DNA from: Halomonas campaniensis
GTDB lineage: Bacteria; Pseudomonadota; Gammaproteobacteria; Pseudomonadales; Halomonadaceae
DNA: 64,000 nt
Assembly (NCBI RefSeq): GCF_014193375.1
Contig: NZ_JACHZF010000001.1
Span: 170,792 to 234,791, forward strand
Reading direction: 5' to 3'
Shown here: piece after piece, positions 1-10,874 of the stretch
Numbering within the stretch: the first letter of the stretch is position 1
Layout: every line of letters begins with the position of its first letter
Made by a program: the position numbers and the translations under genes
The notes under the pieces: model-generated
What the model was told of the DNA's origin: nothing
Database searches by the model: none
What the model saw: the letters and a program-made list of their open reading frames with translations, nothing else

Positions 1-172
1 CAGAAACAAGAATAACGAAATCAGCTTCACCTTCTCTGACATAACCATTCTTGGAAAGAGTCCAATGCACACTAGGCATAACAACCCAATTATCAGGAAG
101 CTGATTTTTGAATGCCTTCAGCACCTCGTTTTCCCAACGGTCTGCCGGCAAACTACCCACAACTTTAGGCAT
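1..172 (-). CDS. NERD-like nuclease-domain protein (N-terminus only, cut by window edge)
   Basis: Only the first 57 codons are present; the gene runs off the left edge. The translation begins MPKVVGSLPADRWENE and continues to EGEADFVILV. An acidic residue in a WENEV helix followed by an EADFVIL strand is the pattern of NERD (nuclease-related) or other PD-(D/E)XK folds, where the Asp of the strand is a metal ligand. NERD domains often sit at the N-terminus of UvrD- or DEAD-type helicases. The ATG lies 5 bases after the helicase stop and has an AAGGA Shine-Dalgarno 9 bases upstream inside the helicase end, so it is probably co-transcribed and translationally linked. It shares the AT-rich base composition of the two genes before it. 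The domain call is moderate; the rest of the protein cannot be seen. Confidence 0.55.
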   Translation of the reverse strand, partial: MPKVVGSLPADRWENEVLKAFKNQLPDNWVVMPSVHWTLSKNGYVREGEADFVILVS

Positions 173-177
173 CTGAG

Positions 178-3100
178 TTATTCCTTTTCCTTAATTCTGA
201 CTGCAACAAAGGAGAAAAGCAAAGCTTCACTAGAAGAAACAAAGCCATCTCTAGTCCTCAGCCTTGGAGCCTTCATTCCATGTTTATATGAAACTCTGAC
301 TGAAATAAGCTTACCAGTTGGGCTGGCCGCCAACCACTCCTCGCCATCTCCAAGCTGATTAAGAGTGCAAGAGACTTTTCTTATCCAGATTTGATCGTCA
401 TGGGTTAAAATTTCACCTTCATTATATTTTTTAAGCTCATCTATTGTTACAACATCTTCTTTAGCTTTGTAAACTTCACTAGACACTCCAGAGGGCGCAC
501 TTTCATCAACTTCTTCAACAATAAATATATCGTCATTTAACAAATTAGCCCTTACCCAGACCATTCGTCTAGATAAGTTAAAAGAATCGACACGACGTAT
601 TTTTTTTAGACCTTTCTCAGCAGCCAGAACATGTGCATTTCCTAGAGCATTTCGCTCACTCGGGATTCCGCTCCATAAGGGATGAACAACTACATTCAAG
701 ACTCCGCTCTGAGTCCACCCATGGACAGTATCTTCGTGTACAACTGAATCAGCAGGAAAGCCATTGTGGACCCACGCATCAACAAGCTTACCAGCCCGTG
801 AAAGCCAGTTACCATCCCTTCCGATCGGCAAAAGGCGACCATCGGCTACATTGTCCAAACCTGGCTTAAAGCCTTCGTCTAGCATCGAAGCCAATAGCTC
901 AATGCCTAACTCCCAATCCAAAAGCCCATGGACCTGACGGTTTCGAAATCCTCGAAGCAGAAGATCCGGACTCCGCCATTCGTTCCCGGTTTCTAGGGAT
1001 AGCTTGATTTCCTCACGTATCATCTTGCCCATCCGCGGAGTGGCGCCTTTTCCGAACAAGCAGCCTCTCAATAGCGAATCAAACTGTTCTCTTGCACTAT
1101 CCACCAAGCCAGCGCCATTCGGATGAGCATCGGCTAAGTATAGCTCCCCACCACCTTTTACTTTATCCGTGACTGCATGGACAGACGCAATTTCAATGTC
1201 TAAAGAATCCACGTCAAGTTCTAGGGCAATGGCTCGCTGCAGGATAGTAGCTGCCGAATACCAAGCAGCCCGGCGTCGAGCAAGTCGTGCTTCATTTGTT
1301 CCTTCAAAATACGTTATTCCGTCGCCATCCAACATACGGATTGCAAGTATGTCTGTTGTTTTTGCCGATGTAAGTGCAACCCTAAACTCAGGATTATCTT
1401 CATCAGCGCACCAGATAGAATTAGCCTCAACATACATTTCATGAAGGCGTTTATTGTCGCGAAAGCCAAAATAATCACCGGAATTGGTATTGGTGCGAAA
1501 AACCGGGGCCTGCCTCTCTAACTTCACATGAGCATTGCAAGCCTTTTCATAACCCTCCGAACTGAGCATTGGGCTTGATATATCCGTAGAGCCAGACCGT
1601 CCTCTACTTTCACCTCCCCCCAATGCCGGTCGGGATATTTTCATATCCGTGGCGAACGCACGCGGCGCGACAGCCATGAATGGTCTTGCACCTAAAATGC
1701 CACAGTTCGGACACTCAACACCCTGTGGGGGTTCTAACAGCCAGTTAGGATTCCAAACACCTTTTTTACTCTTAAATCCGTGTAGTTCACCTATAGGAAC
1801 AACTTCGATGTTTAACTGCCGGCAGGCTACACACCGAATATGTATATAGGCCGCTCCAATAGGTGCCCCTAACACTCTCCAGCCATAACCCCCGGGCTTG
1901 CTCAAAATGGGGGCTACTATATATTTGGGAATCAAGCGGCGCTTATCCCAAGTCCGCTCTGCTCCTGGAGCAAAGTCAGCGATCGCTTGGTCAGCCGGTC
2001 TATTTAGAGTCTTCGCTTCACTCGTTCTACCCTCAGGTAAATGGAAGTACAAATCCCGGACGCTTGTCGGCATACCGAACATAGGCAAAATCCCTGCCTC
2101 GGCTAAGCGATGAGCTAGGGTAGTTGCGACAAATCCAGTATCATCGACTGCCTTACGAATTTTCTCCGGCAGCGCATTCACAAACCCCACAAGGGCGTCC
2201 GTTGATACACCTGAACCGGCACTTACTAGGTGCGCGAGTTCACGAATTTTCTCTCGATGTTCGTCTATCCAGTACTCGACTGACGAGATAGTCTGTCCAG
2301 CTTCCGCTAAAGTTCCCATCTCTCCGTGTGTATCCGGATCTTGACTGGTAGCCGTCCAAGAAATACCAGCATCTCGACAGGCTCGACGCAAAATTTCCTT
2401 GGCAATGAGTCGCTCAGCCAATATGCGCTGGTCGTCGCCCATCGCAAGGCGTGGTTGTGGTGGAACACCACCAGTCATTTCTCTGGGATGCTCAAAATGG
2501 ATACGATCATGTGTTTGACCGCGACAGAATGTAAAAGCTACAGAAAAAGCCTGACCTTTACGCCCCGCACGACCTACTCGCTGCTGATAGTTAAAACGCT
2601 CCGGAGGCATATTTGCTTGCATTATTGCTTGCAACGAACCTATATCAACACCAACCTCCATAGTGGTAGTAACAGACAAGAAATCAATAGAATCTACGTT
2701 TTCTAGTGCCCTGCGCCTCCCTATTTCTTCAACGGTCTCATCATCGAAGAAAATATCGCGGAAATGCCGTTGGCGCTGTGCCTGATCTTGGGTTTGACCG
2801 GTCAATTCCTCAGAATGGATTCGGAAGGTAGATGACGAATCTTTGGCTTCGTAAGCATAATAGTGCTTCTCTTCCTTTTGACTAGCCGTGGCTTTTCCAT
2901 TCGGATGTATCTCTAGCTTATCGAGACAACGAGAACAAACACCTGCAGACGCTTGCCAATGAACTTGCCCGCAATTTCCACATTCCCAAGGATGGTGTTC
3001 AGGTTTCACGACCCGTACCCATAGCTTTTCTAGCTTTACCACAGCCCACAAGTCAGCACTTGGTGAGTGTCCTACTGATCTAAAGGCATCTGCAACACTA

Positions 3101-6100
3101 TTTTTTAGGACTTCAAGGTTTATCGATTTATCACTGGCTACCTTTGCTAGGTAATTATAAACACGCTTTTTCTTAGCACCTTCTTTCGCCGCGCCAGTAG
3201 GCTGATTTAGTTGCCAACCATTAGGGGGTCTATCCCATGGCGTGGGGTCCAATTGGTTTTCTTCAGCAAGGATACGGAGAACACTATCACATACCTGACG
3301 GAATATTTCAGAGGACAATCCGGATGGTGGCTGCAAATTCGGAACAGGTGGAAATGCAAGATGTCCAATCCCTTGAGCTTCAAGGTCATAAAGAAGACGG
3401 CCAGTTAAAGCTCGCCAGGCACTTTTACGAAGCGACGTCCCAATTTTCTCGATGTCGTCAGGCCTTGCGTCATCACTTAATCTTGGAATCAGTTGACCAT
3501 CGAGTGACTCGAAAATTGATGTCCAATCTCGATTGTCTGTAATGATTTTTTTATCAATGGATGCTCCACCAGGATTGACACCCATTTCGATAAAGTCCTT
3601 CCACAAAGGGCTGATAACTTTATTAGAATCAGGCTTAGCAAGAATATCATCAACCCGAACATACCCTTCCCTGTAGGCACGGACACGCTCTACTTGCTCA
3701 AGCTGCGCAGGGAGCGCACCTTCAGCATCATTATTCACAAAACTCGCCGCCTGAACAAAAAGTGTAAACTGCTGCAATCTTGCGTCATCGTCACCAAATG
3801 CTTTTTTGATCCTTTTTCGCAATTCCGGAATCTTGTGCAACTGATCGGACTCTATGAGAAGTAGTGCCTCTTTGATTGCGGCATCAAGTCCGCTTACAGC
3901 GCGATCTTTTAACTCTCTATTAAGGAATGTTCGTAGCAAGAGCTTCCATTGCTCTTCTTCCACTCCAACCGAAAGGTTAGCTGCTGCTTCTCTACTGTCT
4001 GAAAAAGCAACAAGCTTTCTAGATTTACCAGTCGGCAAGGTACTCATTACATGCTTTGAGAAAAGATGCGACATTCTTGCCAGACCGGTTACAAAGGAGC
4101 GGATCGGTGTACGGCGCCCATACCGCTCTGAATAATCGATCAGGCAAGATGGACAACGTTGGGGCATCGCAGAGTATAAATGGCTATCTTTTTCAGCCAA
4201 TTTCGTTGGGTCAATCTGAAACCAATAACAAGCCAGTTTTCCTTTTTCAACATTACTCCCAAGTGAAACCAGACCGGTGATGGGGTTTATACTTGCAGGA
4301 ACCCAGCGGGCAGGCATGTACGCTAATGGTTTACCAGGGCGATCTCTCGTTGAGCTTGTCTCAATTGTACCGTGCTGCCACTTCAGATTATCTTTCGAGA
4401 TAACATTATCATCTGGACCGCGTAGCCAAAGTACACCTACATCCCTATAGCTCTGCGCATCAGTTCGAGTCTCGACTGTAGTCTCTGGCAGTCCCTCAAT
4501 TTGAGTCTCGAGAGACGTTAATTCGAACTCTCTTTCTATCCCTAATCCGTTATTAAGTGAAATTTTGTTGCCACAAAGCAGCTGGGTTCCGCAGCATTCA
4601 CAATATAAAACCTCTAGAACACGCTGCCCCTTTATTGAGAGCTTCCGCTCAGGCAGGAGATCTCCAACTCGTCGATTTCCGTCTTCCTCTCGCAAACCAA
4701 TCGTAGCCCACAAGCCATCGATGTTCTTTGCCATCCAATGGAAGCGGAGACTGGGTATAGCTAGCTTTTTGGCTTTCGCATAGTCAGAGCCAATTGCGCA
4801 AAAAAGCCCTCTAGTAGCTGTTATTCGCTCTTCTGGTGACAAGCTATAAAACCAGTAGTTGGAAATTTCATCCAACGGCTTTGCTCTTATCTTCCCATTG
4901 GAATCGAACGCAGCCAGAATACACTTGTTGGTGCGCTCTTGATCACATTTTAACTGATCTACAGCAGCCTCCAGTGCAGATTGATCGTCGCAATCCAGCG
5001 CTTGCGCCTTACCAACCTTGAAGCAGGCTTCCGCTAAATTTTGATCAAACTCAGGGATTTCACCTTTCAATGAGTATTTGGGTTCACCTGATTCTATATG
5101 GAATCGTTCTTTTGCTTCGTTAGGAGTATAACCAAAAAAGCCACCTAAGTATTCATATGTTAGATCATCGCTGCCATCCAAAGATGCACTGGAGGCAAGA
5201 ATACGAAGTTGGGTACTGTCCGGGCTAATTCCGAGTCTATCTATCAGAAGACGTATCAAATAAGCAACCTCCGTACCTGCAGAGCTTCGGTGGAGATGCA
5301 GTTCATCAATGATTAGCTGGAAAATATTATTTTCACGATCTTCACTAAGCCACTGTCGCGTCGACTCGAAGATATCAGAGTCAGACCGATCACCGAGAAT
5401 ATTAGGATCGGGGTGCCTCATCAGCATGATAGATAACATGCTCAGGTTTGTAACCAGTATGTCAGGCGGTGCTGCTTGCATTTCCCACCGATGGAACATC
5501 TCCGCAGCGTCTGGCGACATGCGCCTTATAAAGCTAGTTTCTTCAACTGCATCGGAAAACTCGTTCTCAGCAGCCTTTATAGCCTCTTGATTGCCGGTCG
5601 ACTCTGCGTCAGCTAGCTCTTTGCGGCACCGCTCAAGCTTACTACGCATCAAGATATGGTCGTTAATAGCCGACTTCAAATCTGCAGTGAGCGCTGACCT
5701 TTTGCTGGTATTTGCTTTGCCATCGGCCTTAAACGGATGTCCGGCAACTGGAGTTGATCCATTATAACGGCCGAACCGAATCCTGTTTCCGGCGAGGTAA
5801 CGATCCAGAGCTTCAAGAGCCTCGTCTGAGTCGAGCGCGAGACGAAGGCGTGATACTTGGTCTTCTACTAGCGCATTCATCGGATATAGTACGAGCGCTC
5901 GAACTGCAGCTGGACGACATTCGCCCCGTAGTTCTTTTCTGGTTGAATCCCACCGAGGGGGATTTTTTGTAGTCCACTCTTCTGGAGTCCTCGTAGGTTT
6001 GGTCCATTGGCTAGAGGAGCAGGTACCCTCTCTAATAATGTTCGCTAGCGCTGGCAGCAGAAAAGATTCAGTCTTTCCAGACCCTGTCCCAGTTACGACA

Positions 6101-6441
6101 ACGCAATGTTTACCTTTCAGTGACTCCCGAAGCATCGTTTGCTGATGCTTATAAAGCGGGTACTCGCCATTAAAAAGGCCCGCTCCAATAATCGCCTTGA
6201 AGGCTTCTCTACCCGTTGGAGTAAATCCAGGAAGATCATCGTCAGAGAGGTCAGCTAATGGGCTTCCCGACTTATAGGACTGCGTTGGTTCAATATAAGG
6301 CCTTTGAAAAAGCACTCCCGGCTGATCTAACAAACTATTTCTGTCGTCCTCGAAGGTAGGGGAGTTCGTCCCGAAAGCCGAGGTTATATATCGTTTTATT
6401 CCATTCCGCAAAGCTTCGTGGGCACCTATTGGGTCTTTCAT
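178..6441 (-). CDS. druE: Giant superfamily 2 helicase with DUF1998-like C-terminus, DruE-like (Druantia)
   Basis: A protein of about 2087 residues. Helicase motifs are visible: Walker A GTGSGKT (residues about 118-124), motif Ia LYPMNALVEDQ (about 185-195), Walker B-type DELH (about 379-382), LVAFSDSREA (near 810), TTTMEVGVDIGSLQ and QQRVGRAGRKG (near 1285). The C-terminal third carries an HPNGAGLVDSAREQFDSLL segment typical of the DUF1998/MrfA-like region. Several CxxC clusters occur (YCECCG, CPSC, CGNCG with CSRC, CVAC with CPNC) and are probable zinc sites. The size and the preceding domain-less 1145-residue gene match DruE of type III Druantia defence systems, which presumably acts on invading phage DNA. 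A GTG lies at 6444, but the ATG at 6441 has the better GAGGG spacing (6 bases). The helicase assignment is firm; the Druantia subtype is inferred from size and gene order. Confidence 0.8.
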   Translation of the reverse strand: MKDPIGAHEALRNGIKRYITSAFGTNSPTFEDDRNSLLDQPGVLFQRPYIEPTQSYKSGSPLADLSDDDLPGFTPTGREAFKAIIGAGLFNGEYPLYKHQQTMLRESLKGKHCVVVTGTGSGKTESFLLPALANIIREGTCSSSQWTKPTRTPEEWTTKNPPRWDSTRKELRGECRPAAVRALVLYPMNALVEDQVSRLRLALDSDEALEALDRYLAGNRIRFGRYNGSTPVAGHPFKADGKANTSKRSALTADLKSAINDHILMRSKLERCRKELADAESTGNQEAIKAAENEFSDAVEETSFIRRMSPDAAEMFHRWEMQAAPPDILVTNLSMLSIMLMRHPDPNILGDRSDSDIFESTRQWLSEDRENNIFQLIIDELHLHRSSAGTEVAYLIRLLIDRLGISPDSTQLRILASSASLDGSDDLTYEYLGGFFGYTPNEAKERFHIESGEPKYSLKGEIPEFDQNLAEACFKVGKAQALDCDDQSALEAAVDQLKCDQERTNKCILAAFDSNGKIRAKPLDEISNYWFYSLSPEERITATRGLFCAIGSDYAKAKKLAIPSLRFHWMAKNIDGLWATIGLREEDGNRRVGDLLPERKLSIKGQRVLEVLYCECCGTQLLCGNKISLNNGLGIEREFELTSLETQIEGLPETTVETRTDAQSYRDVGVLWLRGPDDNVISKDNLKWQHGTIETSSTRDRPGKPLAYMPARWVPASINPITGLVSLGSNVEKGKLACYWFQIDPTKLAEKDSHLYSAMPQRCPSCLIDYSERYGRRTPIRSFVTGLARMSHLFSKHVMSTLPTGKSRKLVAFSDSREAAANLSVGVEEEQWKLLLRTFLNRELKDRAVSGLDAAIKEALLLIESDQLHKIPELRKRIKKAFGDDDARLQQFTLFVQAASFVNNDAEGALPAQLEQVERVRAYREGYVRVDDILAKPDSNKVISPLWKDFIEMGVNPGGASIDKKIITDNRDWTSIFESLDGQLIPRLSDDARPDDIEKIGTSLRKSAWRALTGRLLYDLEAQGIGHLAFPPVPNLQPPSGLSSEIFRQVCDSVLRILAEENQLDPTPWDRPPNGWQLNQPTGAAKEGAKKKRVYNYLAKVASDKSINLEVLKNSVADAFRSVGHSPSADLWAVVKLEKLWVRVVKPEHHPWECGNCGQVHWQASAGVCSRCLDKLEIHPNGKATASQKEEKHYYAYEAKDSSSTFRIHSEELTGQTQDQAQRQRHFRDIFFDDETVEEIGRRRALENVDSIDFLSVTTTMEVGVDIGSLQAIMQANMPPERFNYQQRVGRAGRKGQAFSVAFTFCRGQTHDRIHFEHPREMTGGVPPQPRLAMGDDQRILAERLIAKEILRRACRDAGISWTATSQDPDTHGEMGTLAEAGQTISSVEYWIDEHREKIRELAHLVSAGSGVSTDALVGFVNALPEKIRKAVDDTGFVATTLAHRLAEAGILPMFGMPTSVRDLYFHLPEGRTSEAKTLNRPADQAIADFAPGAERTWDKRRLIPKYIVAPILSKPGGYGWRVLGAPIGAAYIHIRCVACRQLNIEVVPIGELHGFKSKKGVWNPNWLLEPPQGVECPNCGILGARPFMAVAPRAFATDMKISRPALGGGESRGRSGSTDISSPMLSSEGYEKACNAHVKLERQAPVFRTNTNSGDYFGFRDNKRLHEMYVEANSIWCADEDNPEFRVALTSAKTTDILAIRMLDGDGITYFEGTNEARLARRRAAWYSAATILQRAIALELDVDSLDIEIASVHAVTDKVKGGGELYLADAHPNGAGLVDSAREQFDSLLRGCLFGKGATPRMGKMIREEIKLSLETGNEWRSPDLLLRGFRNRQVHGLLDWELGIELLASMLDEGFKPGLDNVADGRLLPIGRDGNWLSRAGKLVDAWVHNGFPADSVVHEDTVHGWTQSGVLNVVVHPLWSGIPSERNALGNAHVLAAEKGLKKIRRVDSFNLSRRMVWVRANLLNDDIFIVEEVDESAPSGVSSEVYKAKEDVVTIDELKKYNEGEILTHDDQIWIRKVSCTLNQLGDGEEWLAASPTGKLISVRVSYKHGMKAPRLRTRDGFVSSSEALLFSFVAVRIKEKE

Positions 6442-6472
6442 CACATTCCCTCTTGATTATATCTAGCACAGC

Positions 6473-9400
6473 TCAGATTACGTCGAGAACCGCCCCGAGT
6501 TTATCAGCAATGACTCTGGCGACATCTTCCGGGATATACCTGTATGCAAGCCACTTCCCATCAGCCATATCTGTGTAGAAGCTGCTTGCTGGAAACTCAG
6601 GAAAGCCATCCTTCTTTCGGACAAGCAGGAGCCTGCTTTTCGAGCTTTCGGTAATATATTTTTCGAGAGCTATGACATCTGGTGAGTCACCACTGCATAA
6701 GACGAGAGCGCGCTCAAGAACTGTTGGTAAACTGATGCGAGCCGGAAGCCAAATTGTTCTTCTAGCTAGTTCATAGGTTATGGGCAAAGGGTGAACACCA
6801 TCCATTCCAGGATAACGGCTTATGTATTTAGCAAATGCGTCGAGAGCCAACCAGACACCCCAGCGGGAGTCACTTACAAACGCGTACTTACCTTGGTCTG
6901 CAAGTACGTACAGATTGCCCACACCAATATCAAGGTCCCGAACCCTCCAAAGCTCGCATACATCACCTCGAGGGGTCGCAGTAAAACGTCCCGTCGACGC
7001 ATTTAATCGCATTGCCCCCTCACGCGCACCACCAATAGACTCCATTGTATTTCTGAACGTCTCGTCCCGGAATAATTCTAGGGAGGCTGACCAGTTAGCA
7101 ACCGAAATGCAAGGCTTCTCTGAAAACTGGAAGCCAATCTGGCTGCAGGCCCCACGAGCTTTCGATCTTTCTCTGATCACTAATCGCCAAGGCTCGAATA
7201 CGCCATTACTTCTGTTACGTTGATGTGCTCTCCAAGCTTCTTCCTCACCAGCGATGACTTTCCAATGGTCGATGCGTAGTGTTCCTGCCACACCCCAAAC
7301 CGGTTGACCAGAAAAAGTTAAAGGCAGTGAGTACAAAGTCGGTTTTATAGCGTGTATCCTCGCGATGTGGCCCTTGTAGGTTGTGGATACGCCTACACAA
7401 CCTCTACGCCTGAGCTCTAATAAAATAAGAATCGGCTCGCCCAACTCCCCAGCTGAAACCAAAAGCCGCTGCAATAAGTCCCTAGCCACCCCGAAATCTA
7501 AGCTGCCTGATTGTGCGAGCGCATCAAGGAACATCTCATGTACGCCTACCTTTACATTCTCGCAGTCTAAACCGAGCCCCAACTCTTCATTGGTAATAGT
7601 GCAGAAGCTTATTACGCTGGGTGGTTCTTTCGAATTGTCGCGTGCAATGCCTAGGTTTACACCTGACAACCCTTCATAAGAGTGGATCGGTCTTCCAATT
7701 CGGTCTAGACTAAAGGGCTTACCAGTATCAACTACATCCCCACCCAGATCGGCAACCCGTAACTTTGCCTGTCCCAGATTTGACCCGTCAGCAGAAATTG
7801 CCTTGAGCTCGTAAGCCGCACTTCTTGAATGAGGAAGCATGAGCTTAAACCGCCTCAGAGGCCGCCAATCGACATGGCCATCCGCCTTTGCCGAGAGTGG
7901 TGAAGACTGCTCTTCTATTTCAATTCCCCCAGCGCAATCAACGCGCGCGTCCTGCGGCGCATCTAACTCTATGAATGGCAGGTCGTAAGGCAAGTACATC
8001 CGACTGTAACCACGCCGAATCGATTTCCCACCGACAAAACGTATAGCGCGTGGTCGTGGACGGGCGCCCTGCTCTCCATCGGGAAGTATGCGTTGTTCTT
8101 CAGATAACGAGGCGCAATCAATTAGACGAATAATAAGCCAATCTTCTGGAATACCCAATGCCGAAACTACTTCAGACTCGGGCTTTTCTCGCTCAATGTA
8201 CCCCTTGAGTGCTTGAACACTCCGGGGCGGTGCCATCAAAAAAGCTGGCCCGCTCGCTGGCAGGTCCCCCTCTCTCAGTTCAATTTCACCCGTTATGTTA
8301 TCTATTGCCGGAGTTAGAACCCAAAGCAGCCGCCTGTTAAGCGTAAGCTTTAGCATCGTTGGCTCAGAATCTTCACTAACAAAGCATCGAGCATCAAAAT
8401 CAACTGCAGTATCTGAGGCTCGATTGGCGATATCCCAGAAACCCACTTCTTGACTATGAGCCGGAGCAGTGTTTGCTCCTTCCGTTCCGGAAAATTGCCC
8501 GCCCCAGATCAAACCATCCTTTTCCACTTCGAACTTACCGTCATCTTGAATCGCCGGAATTCGCCAACTAGGTGAAAGTTGCAAAGGAAAATCTCGAACA
8601 ACATAGAGAGATATTCCCATGTAAATCTCGCCTTCATTCCTGTCTTCTTTCGACGATTCCATACCTGTAGCGCCGCCACCCATTACAGGTATTGTTCCGT
8701 CCCAATCAGAATAGGCATTTAAAATTGCAGCACGGATCGGCTGTTCAAACTCATCTATCTCAAGCGCTCTCTGGAACCCAGCAGTAAATATCGCACCACT
8801 CGCCCGGGCTTCATTCAAAATTCGCGTCAAAGATTCTCCTGACAACTCTTGACCAGGCCTAACTTGCGCCTGAGCGAATACTTTTTTCAGGTTTTCCATG
8901 TCGCTCGGCTTAAGAATGCTCTGGGATCTTGGTACTCCTATCAACCGATAGCCACCTAAAATTCGCCGCTTGAAAATCCCGAACCGGCCATTATTCTCTC
9001 TTGTCCATTCTTCTAGGTCATCCCAAACTTCTTCAATCTGCCCCATTTCATGCGAATTAAATTGGTGTTGTAACTTTAAATCTTTTGCCAAACTATCGTA
9101 GTATGAAGTCGCATTTTCGGCATCATTTCTTACTAGTGCGGCCAGATAAGGCAAGTATCCTGGAGCACGAACCCCGCGGTATTTTATATCGAAATAACCC
9201 GGATCCTTATAGATTCGAGAAGGCTTCCTCCTTTGTTTCTTCAGCTTGAGGATACTACCGGTAAAGCTTTCCCTAGATAAAAACCAGTCTGGCCCTTTGC
9301 GCACAGCTTCTAAGAATCCAGTATCTCCACCAATATCCTGACCCACTTGGTCCAGAAAGTCTTTATCAACACGGAGAAAGACTTCTTCTCCTTCGGATGC

Positions 9401-9910
9401 TTCAGAAAAGAAGCTCCTCAACAATCGAAGATTCCACTCGCTAAACTTATCATCCAAAGGTTTATTCTTATCTCCAGCCATTTTTTCTAGTAGATAATTG
9501 AGCGGACTGGACGTATCGTTAGCACTTTCTAGCAATTCTTCCCATGAAGTGTTCACTAAGTATAATTGACCTTCACTTGCAATAATTGCAAGTACATTTC
9601 CTGCCACAGCATAATTACCGAGACCATTAATGAATATTTTTGGGTCACCCGCCGTATTATCGCTTCGATATAGGATGGACTCGGTTTGTGTGAAACCATC
9701 AGGCTTGACAAGCCAAGTTGTAATAGTAATAGCGCTGCGCGCTCCTTTAACGTCTGCCGTATAGTCATGCAACCCCACACTTCGCATGTAATCAATAAAA
9801 TTATTATCTACACATACCTTATTTCCTTCCAAAACTGAAGTCTGATAGAAAAACTCTAAATCTCGAACTGAAAATGAGCTATTGATGTTTTCTATGCTTC
9901 TACCTGACAT
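6473..9910 (-). CDS. druH: Large domain-less protein, DruH-like partner of the DruE helicase
   Basis: 1145 residues with no motif I can name: no Walker A, no obvious nuclease triad, no membrane segment and no signal peptide. It begins MSGRSIENINSSFSVRDLEF, is rich in charged and aromatic residues and looks globular and cytosolic. Its stop lies about 30 bases before the helicase start, so both are one operon. In type III Druantia a protein of roughly this size (DruH, function unknown) stands directly upstream of DruE, and this is the main reason for the call. The ATG is preceded by a strong GGAGGGAGGG Shine-Dalgarno at 7-base spacing. Codon and base use is AT-rich like the rest of the island. 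An unrelated large anti-phage partner protein remains possible; family identity needs a profile search. Confidence 0.65.
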   Translation of the reverse strand: MSGRSIENINSSFSVRDLEFFYQTSVLEGNKVCVDNNFIDYMRSVGLHDYTADVKGARSAITITTWLVKPDGFTQTESILYRSDNTAGDPKIFINGLGNYAVAGNVLAIIASEGQLYLVNTSWEELLESANDTSSPLNYLLEKMAGDKNKPLDDKFSEWNLRLLRSFFSEASEGEEVFLRVDKDFLDQVGQDIGGDTGFLEAVRKGPDWFLSRESFTGSILKLKKQRRKPSRIYKDPGYFDIKYRGVRAPGYLPYLAALVRNDAENATSYYDSLAKDLKLQHQFNSHEMGQIEEVWDDLEEWTRENNGRFGIFKRRILGGYRLIGVPRSQSILKPSDMENLKKVFAQAQVRPGQELSGESLTRILNEARASGAIFTAGFQRALEIDEFEQPIRAAILNAYSDWDGTIPVMGGGATGMESSKEDRNEGEIYMGISLYVVRDFPLQLSPSWRIPAIQDDGKFEVEKDGLIWGGQFSGTEGANTAPAHSQEVGFWDIANRASDTAVDFDARCFVSEDSEPTMLKLTLNRRLLWVLTPAIDNITGEIELREGDLPASGPAFLMAPPRSVQALKGYIEREKPESEVVSALGIPEDWLIIRLIDCASLSEEQRILPDGEQGARPRPRAIRFVGGKSIRRGYSRMYLPYDLPFIELDAPQDARVDCAGGIEIEEQSSPLSAKADGHVDWRPLRRFKLMLPHSRSAAYELKAISADGSNLGQAKLRVADLGGDVVDTGKPFSLDRIGRPIHSYEGLSGVNLGIARDNSKEPPSVISFCTITNEELGLGLDCENVKVGVHEMFLDALAQSGSLDFGVARDLLQRLLVSAGELGEPILILLELRRRGCVGVSTTYKGHIARIHAIKPTLYSLPLTFSGQPVWGVAGTLRIDHWKVIAGEEEAWRAHQRNRSNGVFEPWRLVIRERSKARGACSQIGFQFSEKPCISVANWSASLELFRDETFRNTMESIGGAREGAMRLNASTGRFTATPRGDVCELWRVRDLDIGVGNLYVLADQGKYAFVSDSRWGVWLALDAFAKYISRYPGMDGVHPLPITYELARRTIWLPARISLPTVLERALVLCSGDSPDVIALEKYITESSKSRLLLVRKKDGFPEFPASSFYTDMADGKWLAYRYIPEDVARVIADKLGAVLDVI

Positions 9911-9953
9911 AGCAAGACCCTCCCTCCATTGGACTATCTTTCAAACGCTAACA

Positions 9954-9959
9954 TTTATA
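9954..9959 (-). promoter_or_regulatory. Possible -10 box for the defence operon
   Basis: On the minus strand TATAAA lies 44 bases before the ATG of the 1145-residue gene, in an AT-rich stretch between two genes. No convincing -35 hexamer is found at 16 to 18 bases, so this is only a candidate. The intergenic segment 9911 to 10133 shows nothing else definite. Confidence 0.3.
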
Positions 9960-10133
9960 CTGCAGCCTTTTTATCAGGTATTGATTCTGCACTTGACTCT
10001 AGAACCATTTTGCGTGGCACACGTCTATTCACCAATACTACTGGCCAATGCACAGGACGGTCGTTGTAATAGGTGGTACTGGACCGTGGTGGCCAAAGTT
10101 CTACGGTTATTCTATTAATCCAGAGATTCACCT

Positions 10134-10535
10134 TTACCAACTCCCACCGCTAGGATTTATTCCGCACGCGGTCTGCATGAGAACAAATCCCCCTAGATAC
10201 CAGAGCCCGATAATTCCAATGAACCCGCATACAACAGCATTGGGAAGCGAGAGCCTGTTTCGATGGAATAGGAAGCTCAGCGAGACAACGAAGATGGCGA
10301 GCGGCAACCCAAGTATTATAAGAACGGAACCGGAAAGACCATACAAGACATTGGGATTGATGGTTCCAACGACAAGGAGTTGGAGAACAATAAGCGCGAG
10401 CCCCATGGACAGCACCGTCGCCGAGATTGACCCATGCACATTCTTATGAATAAGGGGCACGACACCGATGGCAACAAGCAGAAAACCAAGTCCAGTGGCC
10501 AGTAAAAGCAAGGTAAAGGGGCTCAAGAGAGGCAT
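10134..10535 (-). CDS. Small multi-pass membrane protein of unknown function
   Basis: 133 residues from the internal ATG, with four hydrophobic stretches: LLSPFTLLLLATGLGFLLVA, TVLSMGLALIVLQLLVVG, LSGSVLIILGLPLAIFVVSL and VVCGFIGIIGLWYLGGFVLM. No family is recognised. An in-frame start further upstream (10664) would add 43 charged, non-hydrophobic residues encoded by more GC-rich sequence, so the internal ATG, just before the first membrane helix, is preferred although its Shine-Dalgarno is poor. Base composition is intermediate between the island and the flanking chromosome. It is transcribed in the same direction as the defence operon but separated from it by about 220 bases. Whether it belongs to the island is unclear. 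Confidence 0.5.
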   Translation of the reverse strand: MPLLSPFTLLLLATGLGFLLVAIGVVPLIHKNVHGSISATVLSMGLALIVLQLLVVGTINPNVLYGLSGSVLIILGLPLAIFVVSLSFLFHRNRLSLPNAVVCGFIGIIGLWYLGGFVLMQTACGINPSGGSW

Positions 10536-10784
10536 GAATGCATGGAAGCCGCCGACGTTGAATCGCTGATAAAACGAGCTCCTGCATGCGGCGATGCGGA
10601 CTGAGAGGCGGACTTCCGGCACGCTACCGCCCCTACCCTGCAAGACATGATGGCTCCCTGCCACCCCTGCGGTAGTCCCTGCGCTGCGTGTGGTGGCATA
10701 TCGCCTGGTCGTCTAAGCGACCTTAACCAATCAGCGTATGCGACGACGCCGATGGATGCCACACCCGATTGGTCGCAGAGGTGG
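10536..10784. other. Non-coding stretch at island edge
   Basis: Together with the following hairpin this is about 340 bases without a supported gene, where base composition shifts from AT-rich to GC-rich. A small hairpin GGTCG-TCTAAG-CGACC occurs near 10707-10722. I see no tRNA, no direct repeat of an attachment site and no integrase here. Confidence 0.4.
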
Positions 10785-10822
10785 CAAGGCCCCCGAGCCA
10801 GGTGAGTGACTCGGGGGCCTTG
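10785..10822. terminator. Strong hairpin, probable bidirectional terminator (GGCCCCCGA family)
   Basis: A perfect 13-bp stem CAAGGCCCCCGAG / CTCGGGGGCCTTG with a 12-base loop, downstream of the VOC gene on the minus strand. There is no long T tract on either side. The stem core and the loop GGTGAGTGA recur at 14440-14477, and a related stem lies at 20304-20341. Confidence 0.7.
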
Positions 10823-10874
10823 CTTGGGGCAACGCTCAGCGGCGGCAAGCAGCGCAGTGAACCGTCTGCCGTTG

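Follow-up and report, generated by a model that had tools for sequence, protein, structure and literature searches.

A Druantia-family operon of Halomonas campaniensis with a predicted B3-like DNA-reading domain, a NERD-helicase, and a C5-cytosine methyltransferase

Genes and domains of the island

We analyzed a stretch of 64,000 nucleotides from Halomonas campaniensis (assembly GCF_014193375.1, contig NZ_JACHZF010000001.1, positions 170,792 to 234,791; the whole stretch is called the window), at the left end of which lies a putative antiphage operon of the Druantia family, with four genes, P0001 to P0004. All four are on the minus strand and are transcribed in the order of their numbers, with intergenic gaps of 28 bases (P0001/P0002), 5 bases (P0002/P0003), and 326 bases (P0003/P0004). 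A first-pass annotation, made from the letters of the window, had placed the large genes on one strand with the third located 5 bases after the DruE helicase gene, and these open reading frames were confirmed, including the start codon of the third. Its set of three genes stands but is incomplete, as a fourth codirectional gene, encoding a C5-cytosine methyltransferase, lies beyond the window. The operon sits in an island with a GC content of 46.9%, compared with ∼70% in both flanks, and the left part of this island, beyond the window, holds the remainder of P0003 and P0004 (Table 1). P0001, P0002, and P0003 have open frames, and we found no damage in the inspected motifs of the NERD domain and of the SF1 and DruE helicases.

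We then looked into the sequences of the four proteins. P0002 contains the Pfam domains DEAD, Helicase_C, and MZB (MrfA Zn-binding), with intact Walker A, DELH, and motif VI. Among the PADLOC models, P0002 scored highest with DruE2 (1517.9 bits), followed by DruE4 (1219.6 bits), DruE1 (466.1 bits), and DruE3 (228.4 bits), and the DruE2 model PDLC00014 was matched almost over its full length (residues 2 to 1970 of P0002 against positions 1 to 1925 of 1928). BrxH models matched the helicase core weakly (40.8 bits), the best sequence match in the PDB was a solved 1970-aa protein named "Helicase" (9wae; seven entries), and no PLD family was matched at E ≤ 1 among the Pfam sequence profiles. The NERD-like N terminus ascribed to the third gene by the first-pass annotation was borne out: P0003 matches the NERD domain (PF08378) with 37.5 bits, above the Pfam cutoff of 22.1, and also contains an SF1/UvrD-type helicase, with D-x13-E-V-K, Walker A, and DEGQD all intact; we refer to such proteins as NERD-helicases. 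P0004 matches PF00145 (167.7 bits), contains the motifs GGPPCQ, ENV, QNRIR, and GNAVPP, and is recognized by the PADLOC model DruM2 (187.8 bits), with general MTase_II models scoring higher (up to 242.5 bits).

P0001 had been called domain-less. Instead, we found PADLOC matches to DruF4 (103.4 bits), DruF2 (99.2 bits, residues 156 to 407 only), and DruL4 (25.3 bits), as well as a predicted B3-like fold at the N terminus. P0001 has no Pfam match, its full-length model gave no Foldseek match at E ≤ 0.001, a PDB sequence search returned only one chance match (E = 0.96), and a search of a phage collection returned none; residues 621 to 723 resemble Ig-like folds. With hhalign, we compared a profile of 15 P0001-like proteins with two cyanobacterial plasmid loci (L040 and L041), where DruF and DruL are encoded by separate genes. 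DruF aligned to columns 47 to 538 of the profile (99.2%) and DruL to columns 700 to 1029 (94.4%), which is the order of the genes in the L040/L041 operon. Based on the PADLOC matches and on this ordered alignment, we read P0001 as a DruF-DruL fusion made of type II/IV parts.

The fusion is probably not unique to the clade of P0001. The match of P0001-like proteins to the long DruF2 models is limited to about their first quarter. A 1013-aa DruF2 protein from a type II-like locus (L037) matches the DruF2 models of 1011 to 1030 aa nearly end to end and also matches DruL4, suggesting that type II, with its long DruF2 proteins, may already have such fusions. For this reason, we rejected the idea that the fusion itself is new. 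When compared by profile with the P0001-like set, the L037 DruF2 protein aligned less strongly, at 84% across the first 236 columns.

The B3-like domain of P0001 is homologous to the N-terminal domain of restriction endonucleases of the MvaI/BcnI family. The predicted fold falls within the B3 DNA-binding superfamily and is that of the B3 domain of UbaLAI (5o63); the N-terminal domain of LlaJI.R1 (6c5d) was also among the structural matches. In UbaLAI, the B3 domain is linked to a catalytic domain that is MvaI-like. The operon thus has in common with UbaLAI and the MvaI/BcnI enzymes a homologous N-terminal domain, the B3 fold, and a C5-methyltransferase partner, but the domain is here on a Druantia subunit, and the MvaI/BcnI catalytic domain (PF15515) was not found in the Pfam scan of P0001. 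We searched the genome with an MvaI/BcnI enzyme, P0005, and found a match over residues 41 to 147 of this enzyme only, at P0001, and no catalytic domain. Hence, we rejected an MvaI/BcnI nuclease in P0001, the match being to the domain ahead of the catalytic one, and the B3 domain must work with something else. We regard it, from its modeled fold, as a predicted DNA-sequence-reading domain. A PDB sequence search with the B3 profile (A6) returned no match.

Table 1 Coordinates of the features described (window positions unless a genome [G] or locus [L] is named)
Feature	Location	Strand	Description
P0001	window 6473-9910	-	1145 aa, ATG start; B3-like domain, DruF-like part (PADLOC residues 156-412), DruL-like C terminus (PADLOC residues 1044-1140)
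B3-like DNA-binding domain (predicted)	window 9539-9859	-	P0001 residues ∼18-124
P0002	window 178-6444	-	2088 aa, GTG start; DruE2-like YprA-family SF2 helicase
P0003	G000:C1:169341-170963 = L002:17342-18964 (whole gene); 5' end at window 1-172, ATG at 172	-	540 aa
P0004	G000:C1:167638-169014 = L002:15639-17015, left of window	-	458 aa, C5-cytosine methyltransferase
Low-GC island	G000:C1:167432-181405; right part = window 1-10614		13,974 bp
Terminator-like near-palindrome	window 10783-10823 and L003:2548-2575		28-41 bases
Corresponding site in G1111	L060, G1111:C1:2341000-2355100		12.7-kb insert
Leisingera plasmid	L038:5967-17007		DruE1 locus with DruA
Rhizobium plasmid	L042:3991-10644		DrmA-DrmB locus
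Azospirillum plasmid	L043:3961-10662		Annotated helicase and DUF1998 genes
Viral-contig DruE locus	L064:6743-21617		DruE of 29% identity
Neptunomonas B3-GmrSD gene	L029:20577-22205	-	B3 fused to GmrSD-type nuclease
1037-aa gene	L025:17979-23239	-	Between NERD-helicase and methyltransferase
P0012 (Shewanella)	L022:17956-18891	+	311 aa
Restriction gene fragment	L027:18207-18284	-	26 residues

Conserved core and exchanged neighbors

Searches of 390, 369, and 398 genomes at the order, class, and phylum levels, respectively, with partly overlapping draws, yielded two relatives of the P0001 body (in G280 and G1004), and a contig scan with P0001 alone gave six stretches, none of which was confirmed as a relative. 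A profile scan of genome contigs with a DruE alignment revealed 15 related loci (L022 to L036), from the Gamma- and Betaproteobacteria Shewanella, Hydrocarboniphaga, Chitinasiproducens, Acidovorax, HTCC2080, Pseudoalteromonas, Neptunomonas, Marinobacter, Aeromonas, Polaromonas, Pseudoxanthomonas, Pseudacidovorax, and metagenome-assembled genomes (MAGs) of Limnochordia, Planctomycetales, and a gammaproteobacterium. In all 15 loci, a P0001-like gene was found directly upstream of druE and a NERD-helicase gene directly downstream (13/13 when counted independently, as the query patterns were built from three loci arranged in this way, and L022 and L027 in the set are two of these three). The proposal of the first-pass annotation that the tightly linked NERD gene marks a variant therefore holds, this gene being missing from none of the related loci. 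Measured in 13 loci, the gap between the DruE and NERD-helicase genes ranges from −32 to +17 bases, with L032 (DruE in two frames) and L034 (many frame changes, read as fragments) omitted; L034 was also left out of the alignments and trees, and L031 has only 258 bases ahead of its DruF-DruL gene. The NERD-helicase motifs are intact in the 14 of 15 loci that could be read through, and D51, E65, K67, Walker A, and DE[GA]QD are kept in 18/18 aligned rows, window included.

We then evaluated how far this association extends. In a search of 349 genomes from the phylum, two NERD-helicase matches exceeded 1000 bits; they adjoin the only two full-length DruE matches, in the window's own genome and in G1004, the latter being part of the query. 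Seven weaker NERD-helicase matches (E ≤ 1e-15) have no DruE match (E ≤ 1e-15) next to them. Of 16 distant DruE loci from viral contigs, 2 have a NERD-helicase, 5 a C5-methyltransferase, and 1 a B3 domain, and none of the three was found in the stretch compared of the cyanobacterial loci L040 and L041. The tie to the NERD-helicase thus holds for this DruE clade and not for all DruE proteins, and we rejected a tie of the whole NERD-helicase family to DruE (2/9 beside DruE in the 349 genomes and 2/16 of the viral-contig loci). We also found relatives of the NERD-helicase 12 bases after druE1 on a Leisingera plasmid with DruA, directly downstream of DrmA-DrmB on a Rhizobium plasmid, and after annotated helicase and DUF1998 genes on an Azospirillum plasmid. 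These three plasmids were picked for having a NERD-helicase match, so that they show that the link exists and not how frequent it is; their gene order suggests that the NERD-helicase is a part common to several YprA-helicase systems.

The neighbors of the core are more variable. A C5-methyltransferase gene is present in the fetched flank of 13 of the 15 related loci, with differing families; it is located 34 to 569 bases from the core in five of them (L024 and L028 to L031), and in most others, one or two nuclease genes separate it from the core. The methyltransferase tree places the window together with Hydrocarboniphaga and Aeromonas (99/97) and has a second group that consists of Limnochordia, Pseudoalteromonas, Neptunomonas, and Marinobacter (98/99). 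In the DruE tree, by contrast, the window joins Aeromonas (100/99) and then Marinobacter (97/97), within a six-row group (100/100) that includes neither Hydrocarboniphaga nor Neptunomonas. Since the two trees conflict at starred branches, the methyltransferase has been exchanged relative to the engine, as expected for swapped specificity.

Like the methyltransferase, the B3 domain occurs in varied settings. It is fused to the DruF-DruL protein in the window and in 3/15 related loci (L023, L028, and L030) and is carried by a neighboring nuclease in 4/15 (L023, L027, L029, and L034), with MvaI/BcnI enzymes that adjoin the methyltransferase in L023 and L027 and are broken in L034. The four fused copies lie on one side of a branch of the B3 tree (93/94, not starred), which fits one fusion with later losses; repeated independent capture of B3 domains from restriction enzymes, a scenario that we had considered, is not supported by this tree and was dropped. 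Six further genomes were reached only through a B3 match, and in all six, the gene matches P0005 beyond the B3 part; five of these genes adjoin a C5-methyltransferase gene, the sixth being on a contig of only 3.4 kb. Druantia is linked with such restriction systems beyond the clade as well: a plasmid of Alisedimentitalea (L037) encodes in a row a DruF-like protein, DruE2, a 655-aa SF1-like protein whose NERD match is below threshold, a C5-methyltransferase, and a B3-MvaI enzyme.

Several other features of these neighborhoods were recorded. In the Neptunomonas locus, a B3 domain of the same family is fused to a GmrSD-type (PF03235) nuclease beside the Druantia-like core, the third architecture of this domain family. 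The viral-contig locus L064 has a 1085-aa gene upstream of its druE, with a B3-domain gene and a C5-methyltransferase gene nearby. PADLOC identified a type IIG enzyme in L025, and genes of the same size (1037 aa) occupy the same place in L026, L033, L035, and L036 (of the five, only L025 was scanned), mostly from Betaproteobacteria; in L025, which also has an HNH gene, the methyltransferase is a DruM2 (606 bits). In Shewanella, P0012 directly follows the NERD-helicase and has no Pfam or PADLOC match; a D...Q-x-K stretch seen by eye suggests that it may be a PD-(D/E)XK-like nuclease. Just downstream of the B3-MvaI enzyme of L027, a short fragment is 62% like residues 128 to 153 of this enzyme, perhaps a remnant of a duplicated restriction gene.

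Classification and possible mode of action

The first-pass annotation had taken the operon for a Druantia type III-like system. It is indeed a Druantia-family operon with a DruE helicase, but the profile results refute the assignment to type III. A canonical DruH-DruE pair with an unrelated NERD gene would draw on the size and order of the two large genes, a likeness that arises from the fused DruF and DruL. Against it, no DruH model matches P0001 at E ≤ 1, the DruH3 model PDLC00040 has no match anywhere in the genome (control matches in 3/14 genomes), the DruE2 score of P0002 far exceeds its DruE3 score (1518 versus 228 bits), and the NERD gene is kept in every related locus, so that this reading is left with a negligible probability.

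We then compared the operon with types II and IV. In PADLOC, as described in PMC8565338, type II (DruM, DruF, DruG, and DruE) requires the methyltransferase DruM, and type IV is listed with DruE, DruF, and DruL and with neither DruM nor DruG. The operon shares with type II a DruE2-like helicase, a DruF-like protein, and a C5-methyltransferase, and differs from it by an extra B3 domain, an added NERD-helicase, and the lack of a match to the DruG model PDLC00024, one of possibly several DruG models (0/8 genomes or records, including this genome, at E ≤ 1). It shares with type IV the DruF and DruL parts in the same order, but these are fused here, and a methyltransferase, a NERD-helicase, and a B3 domain are present. 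Judged by these profile matches, the operon is by definition neither type II, for want of a match to the one DruG model tested, nor type IV, in view of its DruM-like methyltransferase, nor type III. On balance, we lean toward a Druantia II/IV hybrid with a fused DruF-DruL, DruE2, the NERD-helicase as a third core subunit, and a swappable restriction-modification specificity.

Two other YprA-helicase systems, described in PMC12458937, resemble the operon in part. ARMADA type II has an extra GajB-like helicase fused to an N-terminal nuclease (ArmD, RelE-like RNase), a slot that P0003 fills in a similar way with its NERD domain; the four island proteins, to which the scan was confined (small ORFs of the island and outside neighbors not being part of it), include no BrxHII-like helicase or PglX-like methyltransferase. 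TALON likewise combines a YprA-like helicase with a NERD-subtype nuclease, but the same four proteins include no TPR-CSD or TBP protein, and the helicase is of the DruE2 type and not ARMADA-like. We found no description of a NERD or B3 component of Druantia in open-licence full text, the supplements of PMC12458937 not being covered; the clade may already be listed there.

A parallel for a mode of action comes from CglI/NgoAVII, in which an SF2 ATPase and a nuclease are combined with a C5-methyltransferase and a B3-like DNA-binding domain; the ATPase is active on DNA with nonmethylated sites, and cleavage depends on ATP (PMC4267653). The operon contains the same combination of parts, and by analogy, we propose that it performs methylation-guided, ATP-dependent restriction. 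The proteins would form a complex with a division of labor, in which P0001 would use its B3 domain to bind a short DNA sequence, one methylated by P0004 on the host chromosome. Recognition would be sensitive to methylation, and an unmodified site on invading DNA would let P0001 load or switch on DruE. DruE, as a YprA-type helicase, would open the DNA, and the NERD nuclease of P0003, with its own SF1 motor, would degrade it. In short, the mode of action would be that of a restriction-modification machine, with Druantia as its engine.

In type III, DruE unwinds DNA with a 3' tail and has a PLD nuclease of its own, and the likely sensor is DruH, whose nuclease activity depends on dimerization (PMC13192584). 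For DruE of types I and II, Bell et al. predict that the C-terminal nuclease is inactivated (PMC12458937). If this nuclease is inactive, a separate active one would be needed, and the NERD-helicase beside DruE is the obvious candidate; it may thus supply the nuclease to DruE systems whose own is predicted to be inactivated.

The distribution of the parts does not fit methylation-guided restriction throughout. We did not detect a B3 domain in the fetched stretch of 9/15 related loci, where recognition would depend on another part or would not be sequence specific, and two loci, L022 and L032, have no methyltransferase in the fetched stretch, their contigs ending 1.7 kb and 0.4 kb after the NERD-helicase. 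Both points weigh against our proposal and favor a three-gene Druantia core that acts autonomously by sensing replication intermediates or a phage protein, with the neighbors as passengers of a defense island and the B3 domain as a tether of P0001 to DNA. The constancy of the core amid changing neighbors would agree with this scenario, as would the Ig-like region of P0001, given that Ig-like domains of DruH are proposed as phage-protein sensors (PMC13192584). We nevertheless consider an autonomous core rather unlikely, since C5-methyltransferases recur in the flanks of 13 of 15 loci from distant bacteria, closely linked in five, which looks like more than island noise, since PADLOC demands DruM for Druantia II (PMC8565338), and since a recognition domain of restriction enzymes fused to a core subunit argues for functional coupling.

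A second alternative to methylation-guided restriction is a type IV-like action, in which modified phage DNA would be the target of the system, with the B3 domain reading cytosine sites that carry the modification. The placement of Druantia I and II by Bell et al. as a fourth group of CoCoNuTs, a type IV restriction subclass (PMC12458937 and PMC11090510), and the structural match to LlaJI.R1 point in this direction. The coencoded C5-methyltransferase, on the other hand, would mark the host as a target, and the stand-alone B3 relatives sit in methyltransferase-endonuclease pairs (5/6), making this action improbable.

Returning to methylation-guided restriction, we put forward, as a possibility short of even, that a class of Druantia systems is a modular, ATP-dependent restriction machine guided by methylation, with a fixed engine (DruF-DruL, DruE, and NERD-helicase) and an exchanged C5-methyltransferase and B3 reader, the latter fused or carried by a partner nuclease. 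We found no statement on how Druantia II/IV recognize foreign DNA in the open-licence literature searched. In some Druantia systems, the distinction between self and foreign DNA may be made as in restriction-modification systems, and the predicted DNA-reading domain fused to a DruF-like subunit, together with its partner methyltransferase, makes Druantia recognition directly testable.

Insertion site of the island

Rfam and tRNA scans of the window gave no match. A near-palindromic, terminator-like sequence occurs twice here, within the island close to its left end and ∼170 bases past its right end, and it is present at the corresponding site of a genome from the same genus (G1111) too. There, the left flank is 95.6% identical (614 bases) and the right flank 88.9% (814 bases), and they enclose an unrelated insert that carries an HNH gene along with genes for IS91-type and DDE transposases. 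Different inserts between matching flanks indicate that this site takes up variable insertions.

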